This document shows, piece after piece, positions 44,664 through 56,065 of a DNA stretch of 64,000 nucleotides (within the stretch, counting starts at the first letter, position 1; every line of letters begins with the position of its first letter). Position numbers and translations under genes: made by a program. The notes under the pieces are model-generated. The model was not told the origin of the DNA. It saw only the letters and a program-made list of their open reading frames with translations, and searched no databases. Source of the DNA: Rhodobacter capsulatus (GTDB lineage Bacteria; Pseudomonadota; Alphaproteobacteria; Rhodobacterales; Rhodobacteraceae); assembly GCF_003254295.1 (NCBI RefSeq), contig NZ_QKZO01000001.1:186001-250000 (forward strand), given 5' to 3'.

Positions 44664-45656
44664 TCACCACAGCAGCGCCGCGAACTCCGCCTGCTCCTCT
44701 TCGTCAAGCAAAGCCACCGCCGTGCGGCTGTCGGTCACCAGATCCTGCAGCAGATGTCCCGCCAGCGCCGCATGCAGCGCCACGACCTTGTCGGTCCCGC
44801 CCGCCAGACCGATCACCCGGCGGCGCCGGAAATCGGGCGCGGCGGGCGCCAGCGTGCGGGCGGCCAGCGCCGTTTGCAGCTCGCGGCCCTCCTCGTCGAA
44901 GAATCGGCCCAGAATCTCGCAGGCGGCGCCAAGGCCGACGATTTCCGCCAGATCCTCGGCGCCGATCATCCCGAACTGATGCAGCTGGTTTTCCGGCGCG
45001 CCGCGGCCGATGCCCACCACCCAGACCTCGGCCTGCAGCGCCATCTCGGCGACCCGGCGCAGCATCGGCTGGCGCAGCAGATCCGCCGCCTCCTCGGGCG
45101 TGGTCGCGTAAAGCGGGCTCGGAAAGGGAAAGGCCTGCGCCCCCAGCCGCTGCGCGATCTGGCTCATCACCACATGCGGATAGGCGGCATGGGCACAGGT
45201 CAGCTCGCCCAGAAGCGAGACGAAGCGCAGGTTGCCCACCCGCATCTCGGGCAGTTGCGCCACCATCGCGGCGATGGTCCGGCCATGCGACACCCCGACG
45301 ATGCCCGGGGCCGAGCGCGCCTGCAGCACCCGCATCAGATGCCGGGCCGCGGCGGCGGCGATCATCGGCCGCGGCTCGGTCTGGTCGCGCGGCATCAGCG
45401 CGATGCAGACGGTGCCCAGCCCGAAACGGTCGCGCAGGCGGCGGGCGAGACGGCGGATCAGCCGCGCCCCCTCGGCGGCGCCCGGCGGCGGCACGGCCTC
45501 GCTCGGGCGCTGATCCAGCAGCGCCTGCACCCGTTCGGGCGGCAGACCAAGCCGCCAGCCGATCTCCTCGACCGAGAGGCCGCCGATGTCATGCAGCCAG
45601 CGCGCCCGCGATTCGGGCGTGTCGGGATGGGGAAGCCTGTGCGGCGGTGCGGTCAT
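44664..45656 (-). CDS. SorC/DeoR-type sugar-binding transcriptional regulator
   Basis: 330 residues. N-terminal helix-turn-helix around residues 18-50 (WLHDIGGLSVEEIGWRLGLP), then a sugar-phosphate-binding domain: GVSHGRTIAAMVAQLP, VVMSQIAQRLGAQAF, VWVVGIGRGAPENQLHQFG, and GLAGGTDKVVALHAALAG. Such regulators sense a phosphorylated sugar (LsrR, CggR, SorC). It overlaps the stop of the GGDEF/EAL gene (ATGA). The effector and targets are unknown; no sugar operon is adjacent. Confidence 0.82.
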   Translation of the reverse strand: MTAPPHRLPHPDTPESRARWLHDIGGLSVEEIGWRLGLPPERVQALLDQRPSEAVPPPGAAEGARLIRRLARRLRDRFGLGTVCIALMPRDQTEPRPMIAAAAARHLMRVLQARSAPGIVGVSHGRTIAAMVAQLPEMRVGNLRFVSLLGELTCAHAAYPHVVMSQIAQRLGAQAFPFPSPLYATTPEEAADLLRQPMLRRVAEMALQAEVWVVGIGRGAPENQLHQFGMIGAEDLAEIVGLGAACEILGRFFDEEGRELQTALAARTLAPAAPDFRRRRVIGLAGGTDKVVALHAALAGHLLQDLVTDSRTAVALLDEEEQAEFAALLW

Positions 45657-48169
45657 GCGCCTGATCCTCCGATACCGGCCAGAACGATGGCGCGCGGCCG
45701 CGGCTCTTCGGTCAGGTAGCGCGCCTCGAAACTGCGCAACGACAGCGGCCGCCCCAGCAGGAACCCCTGCATCGCCGGGCAGCCCTCCTCCTTCAGGATG
45801 CTGAACTGCGCCTCGGTCTCGACCCCCTCGGCGATCGCGCGCAGGCCCAGCGCCCCCGCCATCGCCAGAATCGCCCGCATCAGCGCCCGGGCGCGGCCGG
45901 GCTCGGGCCCCTCCAGACCGCGCACGAAGGACCGGTCGATCTTGATTTCCGCCACCGGCAGGCTTTGCAGCACCCCCAGCGCCGATTGCCCGGTGCCGAA
46001 ATCGTCGATCGCGATCTTGTAGCCGACGTCGCGCAGCCGTTCGAGATTGCGCCGCTGCCGCAGCCCCGGCGCGGCCAGCCCGGTCTCGGTCAGCTCCACC
46101 GTCACCTGTTCGGGGTCCAGCCCGACGCGCAACAGCCGCTCGGCCAGATCGACATGGCCCGGCGCGTCCAGCGTCGTCGCATTGATGTTCACCGCCAGCG
46201 GCAGCCGGATCCCCCGCGCCGCCCAGTCGGCCATCATCATTCCGGCCAGCCGCATCACCTCGAGGTCGATCGCCGAGACCAGCCCGTCCACCTCGGCCAC
46301 CGGAATGAATTCCGCAGGCGAGATCGGCCCCAGCTCGGCATCGGTCAGCCGCAAAAGCGCCTCGGCGCCGATCAGCCGGATCCCCTCGCGCACGTCGAAT
46401 TTCGGCTGCAGATGCAGCTCGAAACTGCTCTCCTCCAGCGCCCGGTGCAACGCCTGCGCCACCGCGGTGCGGCGTTCGAACTGCGCCCCGATCTCGGGCG
46501 AGAACAGCGTCACCGTGTTGCGGCCGCGCGCCTTCGACTGGTGCATCGCCATGTCGGCCGCGCGCAACAGCGCCTCGGCGCAGCCGCCGGGCCCCGCGTG
46601 CAGCGCCACCCCGATCGAGACGGTCAGGAAGCATTGCCGCCGCTGCAGCCGCATCGGCCGGGCAAAGGCGCGCACGATGTCCCAGCTGCGCGATTCGGCG
46701 GCCAGCGCATCCGCCCCGGGCAGCAGCACGACGAATTCATCTTCGTTGGTGCGCGCCAGCAGCGCCCCCTCGGGCAGGCCCTGCTCCAGCCGCTTCGCCG
46801 CCGATTTAATCAGCTGATCCGCGGTCTCGTGGCCCAGCGTGTCATTGATCAGCCGGTGATTGTCGAAATCGATGCACAGGACCGCGATTCCGCCGCCCTC
46901 GGCCTCCGGACGGGTCAGCCTTTCGCCCAGACGCCGCATCATCAGATAGCGGTCGGGCAGGCCGGTCATCAGGTCATGGGTGGCGATGAAGCGGGCATTG
47001 TCGATCGATTGCTCCAGCTGCTGGCCAAGATCGTGCAGGGTGGTGATGTCCGACAGCGACAGCAAAAGCCGCCCGCCCCCGGGATCGCCCGGCAGCGGCA
47101 CCAGATCGACCTGCAACAGCCGCAGCCGCCCGGCGCGGCGCAGCCGGATCAGCACCGGGCCGCTGTGGCCGGGATCCTCCATCGCGGCGGCAAGGTCCGC
47201 CCGCCCCTCCTCGATCGGCAGCACGTCGAACACCGCCCGCCCGCAGACCGCGACCGCGCCGAAACCCGTCAGCGCCGAGGCCTCGGGATTGGCGAAGACG
47301 ACGCGGTCCTGCGCATCCAGCACGATCTTGCCGCTGGGCAGCGCATCAAGGATCGTCGTCAGCCGGTCGCGTTCGCGCGCCAGCTCGCCCTCCAGCGTCG
47401 AGACCGCGGTCATGTCGAGATCGCAGCCCATCAGAAAGCTCATCTCGCCCGAGGGATCCCAGCGCACGGCGCGGCAAAAGGACAGGAAGGTGACCCAATG
47501 CCCCAGCCGATGCCGCGAGCGCGACAGATGTTGCACCAGCGCGCCGCGACGCAGGCGGGCACGCGTCTCGGGGGAATCGAAGCCCGCGACATCCTCGGGG
47601 TGGCTCATCCGCGCCCAGTCGTCATGGCTCAGGGGCTCGAGCGCGTCGGGGCTGTAGCCCAGCCGCTCCTTCCACGAGGCCGACACGTTCAGCGCGCCGC
47701 TGCGCAGATCGACATTCCACGACGAGGTGGGGGTAATTCCGGCGTTTTCCAGCGTGCTGCGCGCCACCTGCAGCGCGGCATCAAGGCGAAACAACCGCCC
47801 CGAGGCCGAAAAGCGCGGGCTGACGGCGGCGGGCTCGGCCGGTTCGAGACAGGTCAGGATGAAATCCTCGCCGCCCGCCCCCCAGCGCATCCGCAACAGG
47901 ATCCCCCGCGCCGAAGAGGTCTCGGGCAGGTCCAGCCCCAGCCGCGCCGGAGCGGGGCCGACGCTCAGGAAGCGGCACAGATCGGCGCGGTCGTCGGGGT
48001 GGAAAAGCTGCGCGAAGGCGGCAAGGTCAAGGGTCAGATCCCCCGGCGCACAGCCCAGAACGATCAGCGGTCCGGCGGCGCCGATCCGCAGCCGCCAGGA
48101 CAGCTCGCCGACACAAGCGGACGCCAGAGCGCCGGATGCCGGATCGAAACGGGGGGTGCGAACGACCAA
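45653..48169 (-). CDS. PAS-GGDEF-EAL cyclic-di-GMP protein with degenerate GGDEF
   Basis: 838 residues. PAS-like sensory regions at about 150-260 (SASWKERLGYSPDALEPLSH) and 265-390 (ANPEASALTGFGAVAVCGR), GGDEF-fold at about 400-560, EAL at about 575-825. The GGDEF signature reads NEDEF (ARTNEDEFVVLL), so cyclase activity is doubtful. The EAL domain keeps the catalytic set: GAEALLRL, VNINATTLD, ELTETG, IDDFGTGQSALG, EIKIDRSFV, AEGVETEAQ and QGFLLGRPL. It is most likely a c-di-GMP phosphodiesterase tuned by its GGDEF module. No membrane segment is evident, so cytosolic sensing through PAS is likely. Confidence 0.88.
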   Translation of the reverse strand: MVVRTPRFDPASGALASACVGELSWRLRIGAAGPLIVLGCAPGDLTLDLAAFAQLFHPDDRADLCRFLSVGPAPARLGLDLPETSSARGILLRMRWGAGGEDFILTCLEPAEPAAVSPRFSASGRLFRLDAALQVARSTLENAGITPTSSWNVDLRSGALNVSASWKERLGYSPDALEPLSHDDWARMSHPEDVAGFDSPETRARLRRGALVQHLSRSRHRLGHWVTFLSFCRAVRWDPSGEMSFLMGCDLDMTAVSTLEGELARERDRLTTILDALPSGKIVLDAQDRVVFANPEASALTGFGAVAVCGRAVFDVLPIEEGRADLAAAMEDPGHSGPVLIRLRRAGRLRLLQVDLVPLPGDPGGGRLLLSLSDITTLHDLGQQLEQSIDNARFIATHDLMTGLPDRYLMMRRLGERLTRPEAEGGGIAVLCIDFDNHRLINDTLGHETADQLIKSAAKRLEQGLPEGALLARTNEDEFVVLLPGADALAAESRSWDIVRAFARPMRLQRRQCFLTVSIGVALHAGPGGCAEALLRAADMAMHQSKARGRNTVTLFSPEIGAQFERRTAVAQALHRALEESSFELHLQPKFDVREGIRLIGAEALLRLTDAELGPISPAEFIPVAEVDGLVSAIDLEVMRLAGMMMADWAARGIRLPLAVNINATTLDAPGHVDLAERLLRVGLDPEQVTVELTETGLAAPGLRQRRNLERLRDVGYKIAIDDFGTGQSALGVLQSLPVAEIKIDRSFVRGLEGPEPGRARALMRAILAMAGALGLRAIAEGVETEAQFSILKEEGCPAMQGFLLGRPLSLRSFEARYLTEEPRPRAIVLAGIGGSGA

Positions 48170-48265: not shown

Positions 48266-49216
48266 TCAGGAGGCCTTGGGCGGCGGGGCGCTGCGGTCGG
48301 CCCCGGTCAGGCAGATCAGCTCGGCGCCGAAGCGTGCCGCCAGCGCCCTGCCCCGGCTTTCGCCCAGCACCATGCAGGCACTGGCCAGCGCATCGGCGCG
48401 CATGCAGCTCTCGGCCAGCACCGTGACCGAGGCCGGACCGCCGATCAGCGGCGCGCCGCGCGACGGGTCCATCGTATGCGCCAGATGGCGGTCGCCGACG
48501 CGGACCCAACGCCGGTAATCGCCCGAGGTGGCGATGGCGATGTCGTTGAGTTCAAACATCGCATGGATGGCGCGATGGCCGAAATCGGGGCGTTCGAGCG
48601 CCACCGCCCAGCCGCGGTCGTTTCCGTCCCGGTCGCGGGGCGGTCTGCCGATGGCGCGCAGCTCGCCGTCGATCGCGGCCAGCGCACCCTCGATCCCCGC
48701 CGCGCGGGCGGCCGCGATCAGCCGGTCAACGCCGTAGCCCTTGGCGATGCCGCACAGATCAAGGCTCATCTCGGCATGTTTGCGGGCGCGGCCCTGCGCC
48801 GGGTCCAGGTCCAGCACCTCGAAACTGGGGCGGCGTTCCCGGGCCATCGCGGCCCGGATCGCGATTTCATCCGCGGGCACCGGGCCGAAGCCCCAGGCGC
48901 GGACGGCATCGCCCATCGCGATCTCGAAGGCGCCGCCACTTTCGCGGCCGATGAAGAGCGCCTCCGCCAGCACCTCCATCAGCTCGGGCGGCAGATCCTG
49001 CCAGACCCCGAGCCGCGCCGCATTGAAGCGCATCAGATCGCTTTGCGGCTTCCAGGTCGACATCTGCGCATCGATCCGGTCCACCTCGGCCTGACAGGCG
49101 GCGCGCAGGGGCGCGGGGTCGAAGCCCGGCTCGGGATGCAGCGTCAGCGCCCAGCGCGTGCCCATCGTCGCCCCGTTCAGCACCAGGCGGGCGGTTTCAG
49201 TAGACATCTTCGGCAT
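48266..49216 (-). CDS. apbE: FAD:protein FMN transferase
   Basis: 316 residues from ATG 49216 (GAGGGA six bases upstream; ATG 49207 is possible). ApbE attaches FMN covalently to Thr/Ser of target proteins outside the cytoplasm. Motifs: NGATMGTRWALTLH, SGGAFEIAMGD, LDLCGIAKGYGVDRLIAAAR, and the C-terminal HTMDPSRGAPLIGG that binds Mg. There is no obvious signal peptide in the chosen frame, so the protein may act or fold in the cytosol or use an unrecognised signal. It overlaps the reductase gene upstream; a likely substrate is the DUF2271 protein at 51429-51896. Confidence 0.9.
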   Translation of the reverse strand: MPKMSTETARLVLNGATMGTRWALTLHPEPGFDPAPLRAACQAEVDRIDAQMSTWKPQSDLMRFNAARLGVWQDLPPELMEVLAEALFIGRESGGAFEIAMGDAVRAWGFGPVPADEIAIRAAMARERRPSFEVLDLDPAQGRARKHAEMSLDLCGIAKGYGVDRLIAAARAAGIEGALAAIDGELRAIGRPPRDRDGNDRGWAVALERPDFGHRAIHAMFELNDIAIATSGDYRRWVRVGDRHLAHTMDPSRGAPLIGGPASVTVLAESCMRADALASACMVLGESRGRALAARFGAELICLTGADRSAPPPKAS

Positions 49217-51404
49217 AGCGTCCCTCGGCTTTCAGGCTGGCGGGCGTCTGCCCGATGGTGGACAGGATCTCGGCCAGCGCCGCGCGCACCGCCCCGGCCA
49301 TGTCGCGCCCGCCGCAGACCATGATCTGCGCCCCCGCGCCGATCAGCCGCGCCAGTTCGGACGCGTCGGCGCGCAGCGCGTCCTGCACATAGGTCTTCGG
49401 CCCGTGACGGGAAAAGGCGGTGGTGAGGCGCGTCAGCTGCCCCGCGGCCTGCCAGTCGCGCAGCTCGGCCTCATAAAGCAGGTCGCTTTGCGGCGCGCGG
49501 GCGCCGAAATAAAGCTGCATCGGCTGGTGGCGGCGATTGGCACGGATGAAGCCCGCCAGCGGCGCGACACCGGTGCCCGCGCCGATCAGGATCACCGGCT
49601 TGCGGCCCTTTTGCGGCCGGAAACCGGGGTTGCGGCGGCCAAAGCCCGCGATCGTCGCGCCGGGGGCCAGATCGGTCAGCTGCCCCGAACAAAGCCCGCC
49701 CGGATGCCGACGCACGCAGATCTCCAGAAATCCGTCCTGCGCCGATGAGGCGAGCGAATAGAACCGCGGCAGGTCCGAGCCCCGGGGCAGGATGCCGATC
49801 AGATCGCCCGCCTCGAAGCGCGCAAGCCCCTGCCCGGTCAGCCGTTGCCAAAGCGTCGGGCGCGGCAGGGCAAAGCGCAGGATCGAGGTCGGCGCCTGCA
49901 CCTCGGCGCCATGATCGCGCCGCGAGATCAGCGTGAGGGTGCTGGTCTTCGGCCGTTCGGGCAGATGCGTCAGATCAAGCGGCAGCGACAGGACGGCGCC
50001 CAGATCGCGGCTCCAGCGGGCGAAATCCTGCGCCGATTGCCGGTCGACGGTGGCCATCGGCAGCAGGTCCGTCCAGCCGATCCGCGCCGCCACCGCGCGC
50101 AGGCTTTCGGCAAAGCCGCAGAACTGCGGGAAGGAGCGGTCGCCAAAGCCAAGGATTGCCAGCGGCGCAGTCGGGGCGGATGTCAGCGCCGCGATGCGGT
50201 CCAGCACGCCCTTGGCGGCGGTCGGCGCTTCGCCCTCGCCATAGGTGGCGGCCAGGATCAGGAAGCGGCGGGCCTGGGGGTAGCGGGCGGGGTCGAATGT
50301 GGCCAGCGGCGCGGTGTGAACCTTTTGCCCGGCTGCGGTCAGGCCATTGTGAAGCGTCCGGGCAAAGCCCCAGGTCGTGCCGCCCTCGGAGGCCACGAGC
50401 ACCACGGTTTCGGCCAGCTGGGCGCGGGCATTGCGGCGGATACGACGGGTCGCGCGCAGACCGGCCCACCAGTGTTGCGCCCCGCTCAGCGCCAGCGCGG
50501 GCACCGACAGGGACATCAGCCCCAACAGCAGACCCAGCACCGAGGCCCCCTGCCCCGTATGCAGCATCACCATGATTTCCGTGGCTTTTTCGAAAAACCC
50601 GGGGGTGGCCGAGGACAGCATCGCCCCGGTTCCCGGATCGATCAGCGCCACGCCCCCCTCGGTCACCAGCTTGAACGTGTCGGTCGGATCGTCGGGCGAG
50701 GGCAGCGAGAGTTCCCTCAGCGCATGGGCAGGGGTATTGGCCAGCGCCGGGATCTGGTCATAGGCGAGCCGCGGCAGGTTCGCCGCAGCCAGCGCGGGCG
50801 CGGGTTCCGCCGCACCATCGGGCAAAAGCGAGAACATCGACGCGGTCATCCAGAGCGCGGTGACCGAGGACAGGATCAGCCCGCCCACGGCAAAGCGCGC
50901 CAGTTCGACATGCAGCCGCCCGGCAAAGGGGCCGCGGCTGCGGCCAAACCAGCGGTTCCAGCCGCCCATCCGCCGCGCCACGAGCCACAGGCCCGAGATC
51001 GCCAGCGCCAGCATCAGCGCCGCGCCCGCCGCCGCGACCAGCCGCCCGGTGTCCCCGGCGAACAGTTCGCGGTGCAGATCGGTCAGGACCCGCGATCCCG
51101 GCAGCGGATCGGGGCTGCCAAGATCGGCGCCGGTCGCGGGGTCGATCACCGCCGCGCCGGGCCTGCCGCCCTCGAACCACCAGGCCACCACGCGCCCCGA
51201 AGGCGCGCGGCGGATCTGTTCCAGACCGGGATGGGCCGAGGCCACCCGTGCCGCCAGATCGGCGACCGTCAGCGTGCTTGCGGCCTGCGGCACGGCAAGC
51301 CGTTCCAGCGCCGGGTAAAGCGACAGCGCAGCCCCAGAAAGCGCCAGAACGAAAACCAGAAGCGCCGCCAGAAGGCCCGGCCAACGGTGCAGATGTCGCA
51401 GCAC
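49197..51404 (-). CDS. PepSY-membrane / flavodoxin / FNR fusion reductase
   Basis: 735 residues. N-terminal half: PepSY_TM-type membrane region with segments near residues 9-33 (LLAALLVFVLALSGAALSLY), 123-143, 170-195 and 290-315, and periplasmic PepSY loops (LADLAARVASAHPGLEQIRR). C-terminal half: flavodoxin-like domain from about 350 (VVLVASEGGTTWGFARTL) and an NADPH-flavin reductase domain with RFYSLASS (FAD), GAGTGVAPLAGFIRANRR and YFGARAP. It resembles sulfite-reductase-flavoprotein fused to a membrane module and should carry electrons from NADPH across the membrane. Overlaps apbE. Confidence 0.88.
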   Translation of the reverse strand: MLRHLHRWPGLLAALLVFVLALSGAALSLYPALERLAVPQAASTLTVADLAARVASAHPGLEQIRRAPSGRVVAWWFEGGRPGAAVIDPATGADLGSPDPLPGSRVLTDLHRELFAGDTGRLVAAAGAALMLALAISGLWLVARRMGGWNRWFGRSRGPFAGRLHVELARFAVGGLILSSVTALWMTASMFSLLPDGAAEPAPALAAANLPRLAYDQIPALANTPAHALRELSLPSPDDPTDTFKLVTEGGVALIDPGTGAMLSSATPGFFEKATEIMVMLHTGQGASVLGLLLGLMSLSVPALALSGAQHWWAGLRATRRIRRNARAQLAETVVLVASEGGTTWGFARTLHNGLTAAGQKVHTAPLATFDPARYPQARRFLILAATYGEGEAPTAAKGVLDRIAALTSAPTAPLAILGFGDRSFPQFCGFAESLRAVAARIGWTDLLPMATVDRQSAQDFARWSRDLGAVLSLPLDLTHLPERPKTSTLTLISRRDHGAEVQAPTSILRFALPRPTLWQRLTGQGLARFEAGDLIGILPRGSDLPRFYSLASSAQDGFLEICVRRHPGGLCSGQLTDLAPGATIAGFGRRNPGFRPQKGRKPVILIGAGTGVAPLAGFIRANRRHQPMQLYFGARAPQSDLLYEAELRDWQAAGQLTRLTTAFSRHGPKTYVQDALRADASELARLIGAGAQIMVCGGRDMAGAVRAALAEILSTIGQTPASLKAEGRYAEDVY

Positions 51405-51428
51405 GGGAATGCCTCCTATTTCAGGGGT

Positions 51429-51896
51429 TTACTTGGAAACGGTCAGGCTCTGGACGAAGTATTTCCCCGCCACCGGCTTGCCCAGATTGTCCGAGGTGAG
51501 CGGGATGGTGACATCGTCGCGCACGTCCGACATCTTCTCGACCGAACTGTCGACATGCAGGACATAACCCTGATCAAACAGCGTGTCGGCCAGATCGAGG
51601 GTGATCGTCAGTTCCCGACCCGCCCCCACCGAGGCCCCGGTGATGCCATCGACCTGCGCGGTATTGCCGCCGGTCGCGGCATACCAGCCGCCCAGGTGGC
51701 TGTAATATTTCGCCTTGCCGCCCGCCATCCACAGGCTGCCGACATAGCCGCCACTCGCATCGGTGACGTAATAGGCGAGATAGGCGCCATCGCCGCCGTA
51801 GGCGCTCATCTGCGTGGTGAAGGTGACCGGGGTGGCCAAGGCCATCCCCGGAACAAGCGCGGTCGAAAGCGCCAGAGCGGTGTGAAACGGTTTCAT
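51429..51896 (-). CDS. DUF2271 periplasmic protein with flavinylation-like motif
   Basis: 155 residues with a signal peptide ending near ALATPV, so exported. Matches DUF2271 (TFTTQMSAYGGDGAYLAYYV, GSLWMAGGKAKYYSHLGGWY). Residues 83-89 read DGITGAS, the form of the FMN_bind attachment motif in which ApbE links FMN to the Thr (Thr86 here). Lies 24 bases upstream of the reductase on the same strand. Probably the flavin-bearing electron acceptor of the system; attachment is predicted, not shown. Confidence 0.83.
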   Translation of the reverse strand: MKPFHTALALSTALVPGMALATPVTFTTQMSAYGGDGAYLAYYVTDASGGYVGSLWMAGGKAKYYSHLGGWYAATGGNTAQVDGITGASVGAGRELTITLDLADTLFDQGYVLHVDSSVEKMSDVRDDVTIPLTSDNLGKPVAGKYFVQSLTVSK

Positions 51897-51906
51897 CGCG
51901 GCCCCC

Positions 51907-52284
51907 TCAGTTCGTTTGCACTTGCGGTTTCGAGCCCGGCGCGAAAAGGCCGTTCGCGGGCGGGGCGACGGTGCCAGCCGCCGCCGGGGCGGCGCCGCAG
52001 CCGGTCGCGCCGGGCGGGCAGTTGCGGCCGCGACGATCATCATCGTCATCGTCGTGATGGCCGTGGTGGCCGTGATGGCCGAACCAGCCGAAAAAGCCGT
52101 CATCGTCGTCATCATCGTGGTCATTTCCGGCCAGCTGCACGGGCTGCGCGGGGGCGATCTGCGCCGCATCGGCCGGGACGGTGCCCGCGAAACGCGGCGC
52201 GTCGATCGGCGCGGCCGAAAGCGCGCCAACCACGGTCGAGGACAAAAGCACCGCAAGGGCGATCAGGGGAAGAGAGGATTTCAT
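51907..52284 (-). CDS. exported His/Asp-rich protein
   Basis: 125 residues. Signal peptide to about residue 24 (VVGALSAAP), then a low-complexity core with DHDDDDDDGFFGWFGHHGHH and a second acidic run, flanked by Pro/Ala segments and a Cys pair (NCPPGATGCG). The Asp and His clusters look made for metal binding. Ten bases upstream of the DUF2271 gene, so co-transcribed with the redox genes. No family recognised. Confidence 0.75.
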   Translation of the reverse strand: MKSSLPLIALAVLLSSTVVGALSAAPIDAPRFAGTVPADAAQIAPAQPVQLAGNDHDDDDDDGFFGWFGHHGHHGHHDDDDDDRRGRNCPPGATGCGAAPAAAGTVAPPANGLFAPGSKPQVQTN

Positions 52285-52419
52285 CTGCGATTTCCTTTGG
52301 TTGCATGAGACATGAGAGCACCCTGCCCGGACCGTGGGTCCGGGGAAGATGCTGTGTCGGGAAGGGTGGGCGACGGCTCCGACCAAGGAAAAACCGCCGC
52401 CCTGCCGGGCGGGCCCGGA

Positions 52420-52770
52420 TCAGTCGTCGTGATGGGAGGAACGATCCTTGTCGTCGTGGTCATCGCCGCGGCGGCGGTGATGGTCATCATCATCGTCGTC
52501 GCCGCGGCGCAGGATCTGCAGCGAGCCGGGGTCCAGCCGCATCCGCACCCGCGCCCCGGTGCCGTCCCGCGCATCGACTTCGTAACAGCCGTCGTCGATC
52601 TTGATGCGCCGCACCGTCAGGCCCTGCTGTTCCACCAGCGCCCGCACCGCCTCGCGCGGTTGCCAGTCGGCCATCGGCACGGTGCAGTCATTGTCATGCG
52701 CGGCGGCGGCGGGGGCCTGCGCCAGCACCGCCAAGGCGGCGAAAGCGGACAGGAAGCGGAAAGCGGTCAT
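52420..52770 (-). CDS. small exported PepSY-domain protein with acidic His-rich tail
   Basis: 116 residues from ATG 52770 (GGAGGA six bases upstream). Signal peptide ending AAAAHDND, a PepSY fold (REAVRALVEQQGLTVRRIKI, DGCYEVDARDGTGARVRMRL) with two cysteines, and a C-terminal Asp/His/Arg tail (RRGDDDDDDHHRRRGDDHDD). First gene of the minus-strand redox operon, facing the two-component genes. PepSY proteins of this kind often accompany OmpR-type systems that sense periplasmic conditions. A 135-base gap separates it from the next gene. Confidence 0.8.
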   Translation of the reverse strand: MTAFRFLSAFAALAVLAQAPAAAAHDNDCTVPMADWQPREAVRALVEQQGLTVRRIKIDDGCYEVDARDGTGARVRMRLDPGSLQILRRGDDDDDDHHRRRGDDHDDKDRSSHHDD

Positions 52771-52808
52771 CGGGTCCTCCAATCAGGATGAGGCCCTTCT
52801 GACCTCCG

Positions 52809-52863
52809 AAACTGACGACAAGCTGAAGCATTCGAAAAACCTGCTTCAGCTTCCCGTCAGCTT
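52809..52863. promoter_or_regulatory. mirror-image response-regulator box between pepSY and the two-component genes
   Basis: Plus strand: TCAGCTT at 52846-52852 and TCAGCTT at 52857-52863, offset 11 bases. Minus strand: TCAGCTT at 52826-52820 and TCAGTTT at 52815-52809, also offset 11. Together they make a 19-base inverted repeat (52812-52830 and 52842-52860, 17 of 19 positions paired) around an 11-base centre. The 11-base phasing fits OmpR/PhoB-type dimer binding, one box per divergent operon. Confidence 0.7.
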
Positions 52864-52901
52864 GGCACAGGATAGGGCAAGGGTGAACAAGGAGCCCCGC
52901 C

Positions 52902-53561
52902 ATGCGTATCCTCATCGTGGAAGACGACGCCGTTCTGGGGGCCGCGGTGCGCGATCAGGTGGCGGCCGACGGCCATTCGGTCGATTGGGCGATGCGGCTT
53001 GATCAGGCCGCGGATGCGCTGGCGGTGGCGGCCTATGATCTGATCCTGCTGGATCTGATGCTGCCCGACGGCCGCGGCATCCCGTTTCTGAAAACCCTGC
53101 GCACGCAGGGGGTTGCGACGCCGGTGATCATCCTGACCGCGCTGGATCAGGTCTCGGACCGGATCGAGGGGCTGAATGCCGGGGCGGATGATTATCTGGT
53201 CAAGCCCTTCGATCTGGCAGAGCTGACGGCGCGGATCGGTTCGGTGGCGCGGCGCTATGCGGGCAATCCCAATCCGGTGCTGAAGCTGGGCGAGCTGGAA
53301 ATCGACCTTGCCGCGCGCGATCTGCGCCGGGCGGGCAAGGCCGTCGCGCTGACGGCGCGGGAATGGGCGCTCTTCGAGCTGCTTCTGTCCCGCCCCGGGC
53401 AGATCTTTCCCAAACGCGATCTGGAAGACCGGCTTTATTCTTTCGATGACGAGATCGGCTCGAACACTTTGGAAGTGCATGTCTCGCGGCTGCGCAAGAA
53501 ACTGGGCGCGCGCGTGATCGAGACCGAACGCGGCCTTGGCTACCGGCTGGTGCGCGGATGA
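52902..53561 (+). CDS. OmpR-family response regulator
   Basis: 219 residues. Receiver domain 1-115 with phospho-acceptor Asp in LILLDLMLPDGRG, acidic pair VEDDAVLG, and Lys in YLVKPFDLAEL; C-terminal winged helix 125-219 with ALTAREWALFELLLSRPGQI and VSRLRKKLGARVIETERGLG. Transcription activator/repressor of the PhoB/QseB type. Overlaps the kinase gene (ATGA). Likely controls both itself and the divergent PepSY/flavin operon through the mirrored boxes upstream. Confidence 0.94.
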   Translation: MRILIVEDDAVLGAAVRDQVAADGHSVDWAMRLDQAADALAVAAYDLILLDLMLPDGRGIPFLKTLRTQGVATPVIILTALDQVSDRIEGLNAGADDYLVKPFDLAELTARIGSVARRYAGNPNPVLKLGELEIDLAARDLRRAGKAVALTAREWALFELLLSRPGQIFPKRDLEDRLYSFDDEIGSNTLEVHVSRLRKKLGARVIETERGLGYRLVRG

Positions 53562-54895
53562 AACGCCGGTCGCTGCAATCGCGTCTGGCCATTGCGGTCG
53601 GGCTTCTGGTCACCGTGCTGTGGATCGCGGCGGCCAGTGTCACCGCCTGGCGGCAAAGGCTGCAGATGGATGCGATGTTCGATGCCTCGCTGCAGGAAAC
53701 CGCGCATCGGGTCTTGCCGCTGGTGGTTTCCGACATCCTGAGCCGCGGCGATCTGGTGACGGGCACGCAAAGGGTGCCCGCGGTGCGGCCGCATGACGAC
53801 AGCTTCAGCTACATCGTGCGCGACGACAAGGGCGCGATCCTGCTGATCTCGCATGGGGCCGATCCGGGGCTGTTTCCGGCCTGGGACGGGATCGGCTTTC
53901 GCACCACGCAGGCGCTGCGGCTTTACAATGACGCGGCGCTGCAGGGCACGGTGCGGATCTCGGTGGCCGAGCCGATGGCGCATCGCAAGCGCATGGCTTT
54001 CGAGGTGCGGATGGGGCTTCTGGCGCCGATCGCGCTGGTGCTGCCCTTGACGCTCGCCGGGATTGCCGGGCTGATCCGCTACGGTTTCGCGCCGCTGCGG
54101 CAGTTCCGGCTGCGGCTTGCCCGGCGCGGGGCGGCCGATCTGACGCCGGTGGACGCGACCGACCTGCCCGCCGAGGTGCAGCCGCTGGCCGAGACGCTGA
54201 ACGCGCTTCTGACCCGGCTGGACGACGCCTTTCAGGCCGAACGCAGTTTCGCCGCCAATGCCGCGCATGAGCTGCGCACGCCGCTGGCCGGGGCGATCGC
54301 GCAGGCGCAACGGCTGCGCGCCGAGACCACCGACCCGGCGGTGATCGCGCGGGCCAGCGACATCGAAACCGTGCTGAAGCGGCTGACCCGGCTCTCCGAG
54401 GGGCTGATGAGCCTTGCCCGGGCCGAGGGCGGGCGGCTGCGGCGCGAGGCGGTGCAGGATCTGCGCCCGGTGGTGCGGATCGTCACCGAGGATGCGATGC
54501 GGCTGGCGGGCGGCGCCAAGGTCACGCTCGATCTGCCCGAGACGCCGGTTCTGTCCGATCTCGACCCCGATCTGTTCGGCATTCTGGTGCGCAATCTGGT
54601 GTCGAACGCGCTGCGCCATGGCGCCGCGGGGGCCGAGGTGCGGTTGCGGCTGGAACCGGGGCTTTTGCGGGTCGAGAACGACTGCGATCCGGTCGCGCCC
54701 GAGGATCTGGCGCGGATCGGGGCGCGGTTCGAACGCGCCCCGGGCGCCGGGCGCGGCGGCGCGGGGCTTGGTCTTGCCATCGTGCAGACGATCCTGACCC
54801 GCGCCGGGGGCGAGCTGCGCCTGACCTCGCCCCTGCCCGGTCAGAGCCGCGGCTTTGCCGCCGAAGCCCGGTTCGCCCTCCGCCAGCAGATGTGA
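53558..54895 (+). CDS. sensor histidine kinase
   Basis: 445 residues. First membrane segment about 9-30 (AIAVGLLVTVLWIAAASVTA), periplasmic sensor about 30-150, second segment about 155-175 (LLAPIALVLPLTLAGIAGL), HAMP-like linker, phospho-acceptor His in FAANAAHELRTPLAGAI near 240, and an ATPase domain with NLVSNALRHGA and GAGLGLAIVQTI. QseC-like architecture. The signal is unknown, but the context points to metal or redox conditions in the periplasm. Confidence 0.93.
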   Translation: MKRRSLQSRLAIAVGLLVTVLWIAAASVTAWRQRLQMDAMFDASLQETAHRVLPLVVSDILSRGDLVTGTQRVPAVRPHDDSFSYIVRDDKGAILLISHGADPGLFPAWDGIGFRTTQALRLYNDAALQGTVRISVAEPMAHRKRMAFEVRMGLLAPIALVLPLTLAGIAGLIRYGFAPLRQFRLRLARRGAADLTPVDATDLPAEVQPLAETLNALLTRLDDAFQAERSFAANAAHELRTPLAGAIAQAQRLRAETTDPAVIARASDIETVLKRLTRLSEGLMSLARAEGGRLRREAVQDLRPVVRIVTEDAMRLAGGAKVTLDLPETPVLSDLDPDLFGILVRNLVSNALRHGAAGAEVRLRLEPGLLRVENDCDPVAPEDLARIGARFERAPGAGRGGAGLGLAIVQTILTRAGGELRLTSPLPGQSRGFAAEARFALRQQM

Positions 54896-54943: not shown

Positions 54944-55819
54944 TCAGCCCTTGAGATCCAGGAAGAACTGATAGGCTTCCTTGGCCGTGTAGTTTTCATG
55001 CACGACCTTCGCCACCGCCTGGATCATCGCCACCGGGGCTTCCGACTGGAAGATGTTGCGCCCCATGTCGACGCCCGCCGCGCCCTGATCGATGGCTTTA
55101 TAAGCCATGTCGAGCGCCTCAAGCTCCGGCAGTTTCTTGCCGCCTGCGATCACCAGCGGCACCGGGCAGCCCGCCGCAACCTTCTCGAAGCCCTCTTCGA
55201 CGAAATAGGTCTTCACGTAATGCGCGCCCAGTTCCGCCGCGATCCGCGTCGCCAGACCGAAATAGCGGGCGTCGCGGGCCATGTCCTTGCCGACCCCGGT
55301 CACGGCCAGCGTCGGGATGCCGTAACGGGTGCCGGTGTCGATCAGCTTCAAGACGTTGGTGATCGATTTGTGCTCGTATTCCGAGCCGATATAGACCTGC
55401 GCCGCCATCGCGCAGGCACCGAGACGGATCGCATCCTCGATCTCGACCGCGACGGTTTCATTCGACAGTTCCGTCAGGATCGAATTGCCACCCGAACAGC
55501 GCAGCGCGACGGGCTTGGTGTTCGTCGGCGGCACGGTCGAGCGCAGCGCGCCCCGCGTGCACATCAGCACGTCGGCATGATCGGCGAGCGGCAGGATGTT
55601 CAGATCCATCCGCTCGAGCCCGGTGGCCGGGCCCTGGAAATAGCCGTGGTCAAAGGCCAGCATCACCGTGCGGCCGGTCTTCGGGTTGAAGATGCGGCTC
55701 AGGCGATTCTTCATCCCCCAGTCGTAATGGGCCGCGCCCTTGAGGAAGAAGCCCTGCAGATCGGCCGGTCGGTCGAGCCCGAAATCCTTGCCTTCCTTGA
55801 TGTCGTCGAGATCGGCCAT
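54944..55819 (-). CDS. lsrF: LsrF/DhnA-type class I aldolase family protein
   Basis: 291 residues from ATG 55819 (AAAGGAACG upstream). Closest to 3-hydroxy-5-phosphonooxypentane-2,4-dione thiolase (LsrF), which breaks down phosphorylated AI-2, within the DhnA aldolase family: [55 protein letters not shown] with the Schiff-base Lys, and [19 protein letters not shown]. No other lsr gene is next to it. The LsrF role is known for the family in enteric bacteria; here it is inferred. Confidence 0.8.
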
Positions 55820-56065
55820 GGTCGTTCCTTTCAGTTCAGGCCGGAGCCGGACCCCGGTCCCGGAGGGGGCAGACGGGGTCCGCCCCCCGCCCGCGATCGG
55901 CGGCAAGATACCGTGCCCTCTGCGAATGTCCCAGCGAAGCCGTGGCCCCGCAGCCGACATATTGCCGCATCCGCAAGCCTTTGGCGCCGTTTTCAGGGGC
56001 GCTGTTTACGCAATGTTTCCGCTTCTGCCCTAGGGTCGGGGCGTCTTGGAAGGGAACAGGAACCG

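Follow-up and report, generated by a model that had tools for sequence, protein, structure and literature searches.

We analysed a 64,000-nucleotide stretch of Rhodobacter capsulatus DNA (contig NZ_QKZO01000001.1, positions 186,001 to 250,000; hereafter the window), in which positions 48266 to 54895 carry genes for an ApbE-type flavin transferase, a membrane reductase, a DUF2271 protein and two small exported proteins, facing a two-component system. We propose that this cluster encodes a self-contained, signal-responsive, mobile periplasmic reductase for metal, most likely iron, a reading to which we give an even chance. That it serves to detect some signal beyond the inner membrane and to pass electrons across by way of a flavoprotein is very probable. 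The gene set and order, the motifs, the operator and the co-inheritance were read from the sequence, and from them we infer every enzymatic and sensing step as well as the metal.

According to this proposal, electrons would pass from reduced nicotinamide adenine dinucleotide phosphate (NADPH) through flavin adenine dinucleotide (FAD) and flavin mononucleotide (FMN) in the cytosolic diflavin half of the reductase to two b-haems in its PepSY_TM domain, and then to covalently bound FMN on Thr86 of the periplasmic DUF2271 protein. The extracytosolic acceptor would most likely be Fe(III), probably in contact with an Asp/His-rich protein. A kinase of the QseC/PmrB type would monitor the periplasm, gated by a small PepSY_2 protein that may report either metal, through its acidic tail, or redox state, through a cysteine pair, and the regulator would bind a 49-nucleotide operator, turning on its own genes together with the reductase operon. 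The role of the system would most likely lie in handling a divalent metal, iron or possibly another one, at the inner membrane, and it would probably be used under metal excess or redox stress and not for ordinary siderophore-type uptake.

A divergent, probably mobile locus with a dedicated operator

Each of the seven genes has an open frame at the coordinates given here. On the minus strand, the order of transcription is PepSY_2 gene (52420..52770), Asp/His-rich gene (51907..52284), DUF2271 gene (51429..51896), reductase gene (49197..51404) and ApbE gene (48266..49216), the last overlapping the reductase gene by 20 nucleotides. The plus strand carries, facing these five, a PmrA/QseB-like response regulator of the OmpR type (52902..53561; PF00072, Response_reg, and PF00486, Trans_reg_C) and a QseC-like sensor histidine kinase (53558..54895; PF02518, HATPase_c, and PF00512, HisKA), whose start overlaps the regulator gene by 4 nucleotides. 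The best NCBIfam model for the regulator was PmrA, at 213 bits under its cut-off of 330, and QseC scored 201 bits with the kinase, under its cut-off of 475.

This arrangement is inherited as a whole. Among 26 same-family regions, whose genes were called with our own codon-based script, 25 have the two-component genes opposite DUF2271 and the reductase; within these 25, L055 lacks both small proteins and L052 a PepSY_2 match. Across 80 named loci, the top-ranking ones from a set of at least 544 DUF2271 relatives, we found the regulator, the kinase and ApbE in 77 each, PepSY_2 in 76 and the tail of the Asp/His-rich family (NGLF) in 74. No ApbE match was obtained in L097 and L113 (contig ends first) or in L125 (reductase match breaks off). 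The pairwise distances of regulator, kinase, DUF2271, reductase and ApbE correlated with r = 0.72 to 0.93 in a dereplicated set of 58 loci, where permutation gave at most 0.25; this set was reached by dropping 8 of the 80 loci for a missing protein or an in-frame stop and then 14 of 72 for a reductase more than 92% identical to another. By DUF2271, the nearest named loci listed are those of R. capsulatus SP108 (97%) and R. viridis (92%), very near records having possibly been left out.

The cluster also appears to travel. A DUF2271 relative was present in 97 plasmid records, 71 of them typed as conjugative, not all of which necessarily carry this variant. Two of the five that were opened (L244 and L245), conjugative plasmids of Roseobacteraceae, hold a cassette with a ferric-reductase-like gene, an ATPase and a VIT gene a few kilobases after repABC. 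Because such cassettes lie on conjugative plasmids, the cluster is very likely a portable unit.

The intergenic region between the divergent units contains a 22-nucleotide inverted repeat, and the putative binding site of the regulator is the 49-nucleotide operator CTGAC-N6-CTGAA-N17-TTCAG-N6-GTCAG (52812..52860, 0 mismatches), built as two inverted pairs of direct pentamer repeats, a doubled layout that suits divergent promoters. With a central spacer of N17 in 59 loci and N18 in 18, it is present at three mismatches or fewer in 77 of 77 named loci: 45 without mismatch, 12 with one, 17 with two and 3 with three. No control came within three mismatches: the minimum was 5 among 385 shuffles and 7 among 77 coding-sequence controls. 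A second, less symmetric copy precedes the reductase operon in 60 of the 77 loci. None was found there in the R. capsulatus cluster, which instead has a weak terminator-like hairpin with a T run between the PepSY_2 and Asp/His-rich genes (52397..52412, minus strand; one found versus a shuffle mean of 0.4, standard deviation 0.7).

In the R. capsulatus genome, the full operator (N17, at most three mismatches) occurs only at 52812-52860, so the regulatory circuit appears local to the cluster. A search with half-sites returned seven places, two of which are the operator itself; the other five lie inside predicted open reading frames and were therefore taken as chance, and a regulon beyond the cluster was rejected. 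Over 101 genomes, the operator search gave a match in 32 and the reversed control pattern in 3. Off-locus sites with three mismatches were mostly unconvincing, the pair in G002 and G017 lying within one common 348-nucleotide stretch of 96% identity. The site in G096 is real, belonging to a locus (L143) with regulator, kinase, PepSY_2 and cytochrome b561 and no DUF2271.

Predicted flavin electron transfer and an ApbE apparently without export signal

The reductase (735 residues, GTG start) combines PepSY_TM (PF03929, 4e-34), flavodoxin (PF00258) and FNR (PF00175) domains, with FAD_binding_6 just under the Pfam cut-off. Alignments were made on subsets of the relatives (20 of 81 reductases, 12 and 25 of 81 DUF2271 sequences, 12 PepSY_2 proteins). 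H6, H111, H165 and H282 of the reductase were invariant in 20 of 20 aligned sequences, as expected for the two predicted b-haems. The 50 Foldseek matches listed for the reductase model were diflavin reductases and fusions of the P450 reductase/CysJ type, and FoxB was not among them. By sequence and fold searches, the predicted cytosolic half is thus a diflavin reductase of the P450-reductase/CysJ kind. We rejected an identity as sulfite reductase because the similarity to CysJ covers this half (NCBIfam CysJ, 149 bits versus a cut-off of 668, best stretch residues 546-735). A set of PepSY_TM, flavodoxin and FNR domains spread over several genes next to ApbE is called the sulfite reductase alpha component in the accessible part of a Brucella ovis flavoproteome study (PMC9045290); that name looks wrong to us.

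The DUF2271 protein (PF10029, 109 bits, 2e-31), the only DUF2271 match in the genome, has a Sec-like N terminus by hydropathy and is the predicted FMN acceptor. It carries the substrate motif [ST]GA[ST] as T86-G-A-S within DGITGAS (residues 83-89; 51630..51650, minus strand), Thr86 being the predicted flavinylation site. Of 27 aligned rows, R. capsulatus included, 26 have Thr at the equivalent position and the remaining one has Ser, and the corresponding Thr is reported as required in A. ursilacus (PMC8238504). A fold search of the PDB with DUF2271 gave no hit with an E value of 0.001 or lower. The loop around the site (residues 81-90) had a mean predicted local distance difference test score of 59, and no geometry was drawn from it.

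These results bear on several claims of the original prediction. The gene set it named, a minus-strand cluster facing a regulator and a kinase, is borne out by the open frames and the Pfam matches, and its placing of Thr86 in DGITGAS was numbered correctly. Its reading as an extracytosolic flavin electron-transfer system fits every domain as well as the published PepSY-like flavinylation class, and synteny and operator strongly support the two-component control that it ascribed to the cluster. It had the operator only in the form of a shared regulatory region, and it made no remark on the missing signal peptide of ApbE.

The ApbE of the cluster (FAD:protein FMN transferase; PF02424, 241 bits, 2e-71) is one of three ApbE matches in the genome. 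Its 316 residues run from the longest start after an in-frame stop, and a distance of about five codons from that stop fixes the start in most loci. Export was scored by one N-terminal hydropathy measure with a threshold of 1.5, which 83 of 85 PepSY_2 and 44 of 44 Asp-rich proteins pass. ApbE exceeded it in none of the 77 cluster loci (highest value 1.31), while DUF2271 did so in all 80; a twin arginine within the first 15 residues of DUF2271 occurred in 0 of 80. The R. capsulatus cluster ApbE scored 0.59, versus 2.48 and 2.24 for its two paralogues in the same genome. On these scores, no ApbE of the 77 loci shows an export signal and every one of the 80 DUF2271 proteins looks exported. The simplest reading they suggest is that FMN is attached to DUF2271 in the cytosol before Sec export; ApbE may also associate with the membrane by other means.

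Such an attachment is chemically possible, as Meheust et al. (2021) are reported to have tested ApbE and DUF2271 flavinylation with signal-truncated versions in E. coli (PMC8238504). Their ApbE, from another lineage, had a signal that was cut off, whereas none is visible in the ApbE studied here. Several observations tell against attachment before export. The measure is crude and not specific, as 5 of 78 cytosolic regulators also pass the threshold, and the R. capsulatus DUF2271 (1.62) scores little above its own regulator (1.47). Low-scoring ApbE proteins are not unique to the cluster, those of L178, L180, L188 and L189 being low and that of L187 high, with the other starts unclear, and a review (PMC12052999) terms ApbE membrane-bound in its accessible part. 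In a further locus, L185 (6072-7445), we observed an ApbE-DUF2271 fusion with a single hydrophobic signal, the opposite arrangement to a signal-less ApbE.

We tentatively go one step further, in a combined model that we hold possible and somewhat short of even. Cytosolic ApbE would load unfolded DUF2271 before Sec export, so that the flavoprotein would leave the cell's interior complete and no periplasmic FAD supply would be needed, and the whole would be a plasmid-borne sense-and-reduce cassette in which one PepSY_2-gated regulator and operator is wired to flavin, b561 or ferric-reductase-like carriers. If true, flavinylation by an ApbE in the cytosol, with the substrate leaving through Sec, would revise the view of how some extracytosolic flavoproteins arise.

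Sensing proteins, neighbouring genes and the metal

The small exported PepSY_2 protein (PF13670, 83 bits, 1.5e-23) has two cysteines, C29 and C62, and an Asp/His-rich tail. In Vibrio cholerae, the small PepSY protein DbfQ is reported to bind its kinase and to shift it towards phosphatase activity, and neighbourhoods of PepSY and two-component genes to be more than 60-fold enriched (PMC12714742); by analogy, PepSY_2 is a candidate modulator of its kinase. The second exported protein has no Pfam match and ends in the tail APPxNGLFxPGxxPxVxxN. Within its family the acidic run is variable, the longest D/E/H run ranging from 4 to 24, while the tail (APPxNGLF...PxVxxN) is rather constant and has a PepSY_2 core in front of it in 23 of 72 tail-bearing proteins. 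We regard this protein as a putative periplasmic metal buffer with a docking tail. As to the kinase, ExxE directly follows the first transmembrane segment in 57 of 78 family members (77 loci and R. capsulatus). This motif may be general to QseC-type kinases. Its place is apparently similar to that of the Fe2+ site of BqsS, which is reported to bind Fe2+ (PMC12666569).

The cysteines may point to a different signal. Both are present in 65 of the 69 PepSY_2 proteins counted (the 69 of 80 loci with a called gene), 61 of which have exactly two, and a conserved pair in an exported protein suggests a disulfide. The circuit might thus serve periplasmic redox balance or oxidant repair, with the PepSY_2 cysteines sensing oxidation and the regulator calling up the linked electron carrier, presumably in the manner of HprSR-MsrPQ. 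That the module is found next to different carriers, in part with an unchanged operator, speaks for this explanation, but metal transporters repeatedly adjoin the operon and poly-Asp runs suit metal better than oxidants, and we consider it unlikely.

Metal reading of the cluster draws on its neighbours in relatives. When all predicted neighbours were clustered, using the same script, the non-core families were VIT (39 of 80 loci), P-type ATPase (32), b561 (16) and ferric-reductase-like (12), and no further family was common to more than 11 of the 80; a direct search gave 34, 17 and 12 loci for the last three. Loci in which an ATPase or VIT gene stands downstream of ApbE on the same strand mostly have about 30 to 215 nucleotides between the matched stretches. 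TPCP precedes DKTGT in 29 of 34 ATPases (of the others, one has CPC, two SPC and two are cut short), which we take to be the mark of P1B-5 metal ATPases; enzymes of the P1B type export metal from the cytosol. NCBIfam named one such ATPase only as a heavy metal translocating P-type ATPase. Nia of S. meliloti, of the P1B-5 class, has been linked to Fe and Ni detoxification (PMC4932525). Because a metal P-type ATPase and VIT follow in the same direction in many relatives, a metal-handling role is the most likely one, and together with Nia these neighbours favour iron, and excess over scarcity. The original prediction had named metal, iron or copper, as substrate and signal. The VIT and ATPase neighbours make metal a plausible and better-supported reading and favour iron over copper, and the direction may be either acquisition or detoxification. 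Elsewhere in the R. capsulatus genome, away from the cluster, a locus (L254, 778-1755) encodes a membrane protein with ferritin-like and VIT domains, the only VIT match of this genome, which we take to be MbfA-like.

The cluster could instead encode an assimilatory ferric reductase that supplies Fe(II) for uptake, with the two-component system turning it on when iron is scarce. For this speak the published inference for the class, the Fur control and fitness under ethylenediaminetetraacetic acid (EDTA) of a Caulobacter locus, and the proposal of VIT as uptake partner, as far as these sources could be consulted. Set against it, no neighbour family of TonB-receptor size or of DUF4198 rises above 11 of 80 loci, the controlling operator is that of a dedicated two-component system, P1B ATPases work in the direction of export, and Nia is tied to detoxification; we judge assimilation rather unlikely. 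Very unlikely, in our estimate, is a Mg/Ca or envelope-charge circuit like PhoPQ, PmrAB or CarRS, in which the acidic proteins would buffer divalent cations and the reductase would be incidental cargo. The regulator is indeed nearest to PmrA/QseB models, and an mgtC- or mgtA-type gene lies near two plasmid copies, but no other transporter family exceeds 11 of 80 loci and the constant part of the locus is the reductase and not cation transport.

Several findings weigh against a metal reductase answering to iron. The R. capsulatus cluster has neither VIT nor ATPase beside it, and since its operator occurs nowhere else in the genome either, the link to iron is borrowed from relatives. Its kinase lacks ExxE after the first transmembrane segment (Q36/A39). 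The mgtC- or mgtA-type gene on two plasmids makes a Mg or general cation signal possible. The exporters oppose the published iron-assimilation role, yet it is hard to see what reduction would serve when iron is in excess. Eight of the 14 loci fetched by PepSY_2 (L231-L234, L236-L238 and L240), together with L143 (5134-8075), combine regulator, kinase, PepSY_2 and b561 with no DUF2271, an arrangement that a role in iron alone leaves unexplained; the operator, at three mismatches or fewer, is present in four of those eight and in L143, and these loci are possibly a simpler form of the circuit. L178 and L180, on the other side, which have the DUF2271, reductase and ApbE genes, carry a three-mismatch operator before DUF2271 with no two-component system nearby and no PepSY_2 match genome-wide. 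An adjacent two-component system is missing from 3 of the 80 loci (L070, L090 and L133, only L090 lying at a contig end) and from L056, L057 and L058. The frequencies in the 80 loci do not carry over to DUF2271 clusters at large: in a sample spread evenly over the phylum, 6 of 20 opened DUF2271 loci had a two-component system, and 12 of the other 14 carry DUF4198.

Two genes border the cluster. A thiolase resembling LsrF (54944-55822; NCBIfam PRK08227, above cut-off) adjoins the kinase and is a neighbour of the cluster in only the closest relatives (2 of 80). Beside ApbE lies a large signalling protein (45653-48169), GGDEF/EAL-like by domain names read off the sequence, which is likewise a neighbour in 2 of 80 loci.

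Relation to known systems

The core belongs to the known PepSY-like flavinylation class, for which Meheust et al. (2021) report 3220 clusters, 2833 with DUF2271, 1500 with DUF4198 and 1077 with an NAD-binding domain on the PepSY protein; flavin was shown on one DUF2271, and iron reduction was inferred for the class (PMC8238504). In common with that class, the cluster pairs PepSY_TM with ApbE and an exported DUF2271 with [ST]GA[ST], and VIT stands beside some members. The DUF4198 partner was absent from the eight window proteins scanned with Pfam. Present here are a dedicated two-component system, PepSY_2, a poly-Asp protein with the NGLF tail and an operator, none of which is mentioned in the accessible part of that paper. 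Cytochrome b561 (PF01292) and ferric-reductase-like (PF01794) proteins, whose membrane domains differ from PepSY_TM, fill the cassette slot in some relatives and are absent from the R. capsulatus cluster.

Another close published locus is Caulobacter CCNA_03155-03159, a Fur-controlled DUF2271/PepSY locus needed under EDTA (PMC12004947). It shares DUF2271, a PepSY-family membrane protein and a flavin-dependent reductase with the R. capsulatus cluster, and differs in its regulation by Fur, in the presence of DUF4198 and in that the accessible part of the report mentions no two-component system.

The regulatory half has counterparts of its own. In DbfQRS-like modules (PMC12714742), a small exported protein of PepSY fold is likewise encoded within four genes of a kinase and an OmpR-type regulator, sometimes in divergent arrangement; unlike these, the cluster has PepSY_2 (PF13670) instead of PepSY, a poly-Asp/His tail and a link to a reductase. 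According to the same source, PepSY genes also adjoin the kinase in BqsRS/CarRS of Pseudomonas aeruginosa, as they do here. The reported BqsR site, TTAAG-N6-TTAAG (PMC4682146), has the pentamer-N6-pentamer layout in common with our operator, a similarity of architecture only: here CTGAC/CTGAA pentamers form two facing pairs, and one full site in the R. capsulatus genome compares with 432 candidate BqsR operators.

That the combination has no assigned function, as the original prediction stated, holds in the literature searched, and both halves have published counterparts (PMC8238504, PMC12714742). In the accessible parts of papers that link such flavinylation systems or ferric reductases to two-component control, we recognised no description of it. 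As far as searched, what is undescribed is the regulated mobile variant, with its operator, its family of tail proteins and its signal-less ApbE. With a precise operator, apparently one target and a host as amenable to genetics as R. capsulatus, the trigger lends itself to direct tests. Overall, the cluster joins two literatures, that of ApbE/DUF2271 chains without a known trigger and that of PepSY-gated two-component systems without a known redox output.

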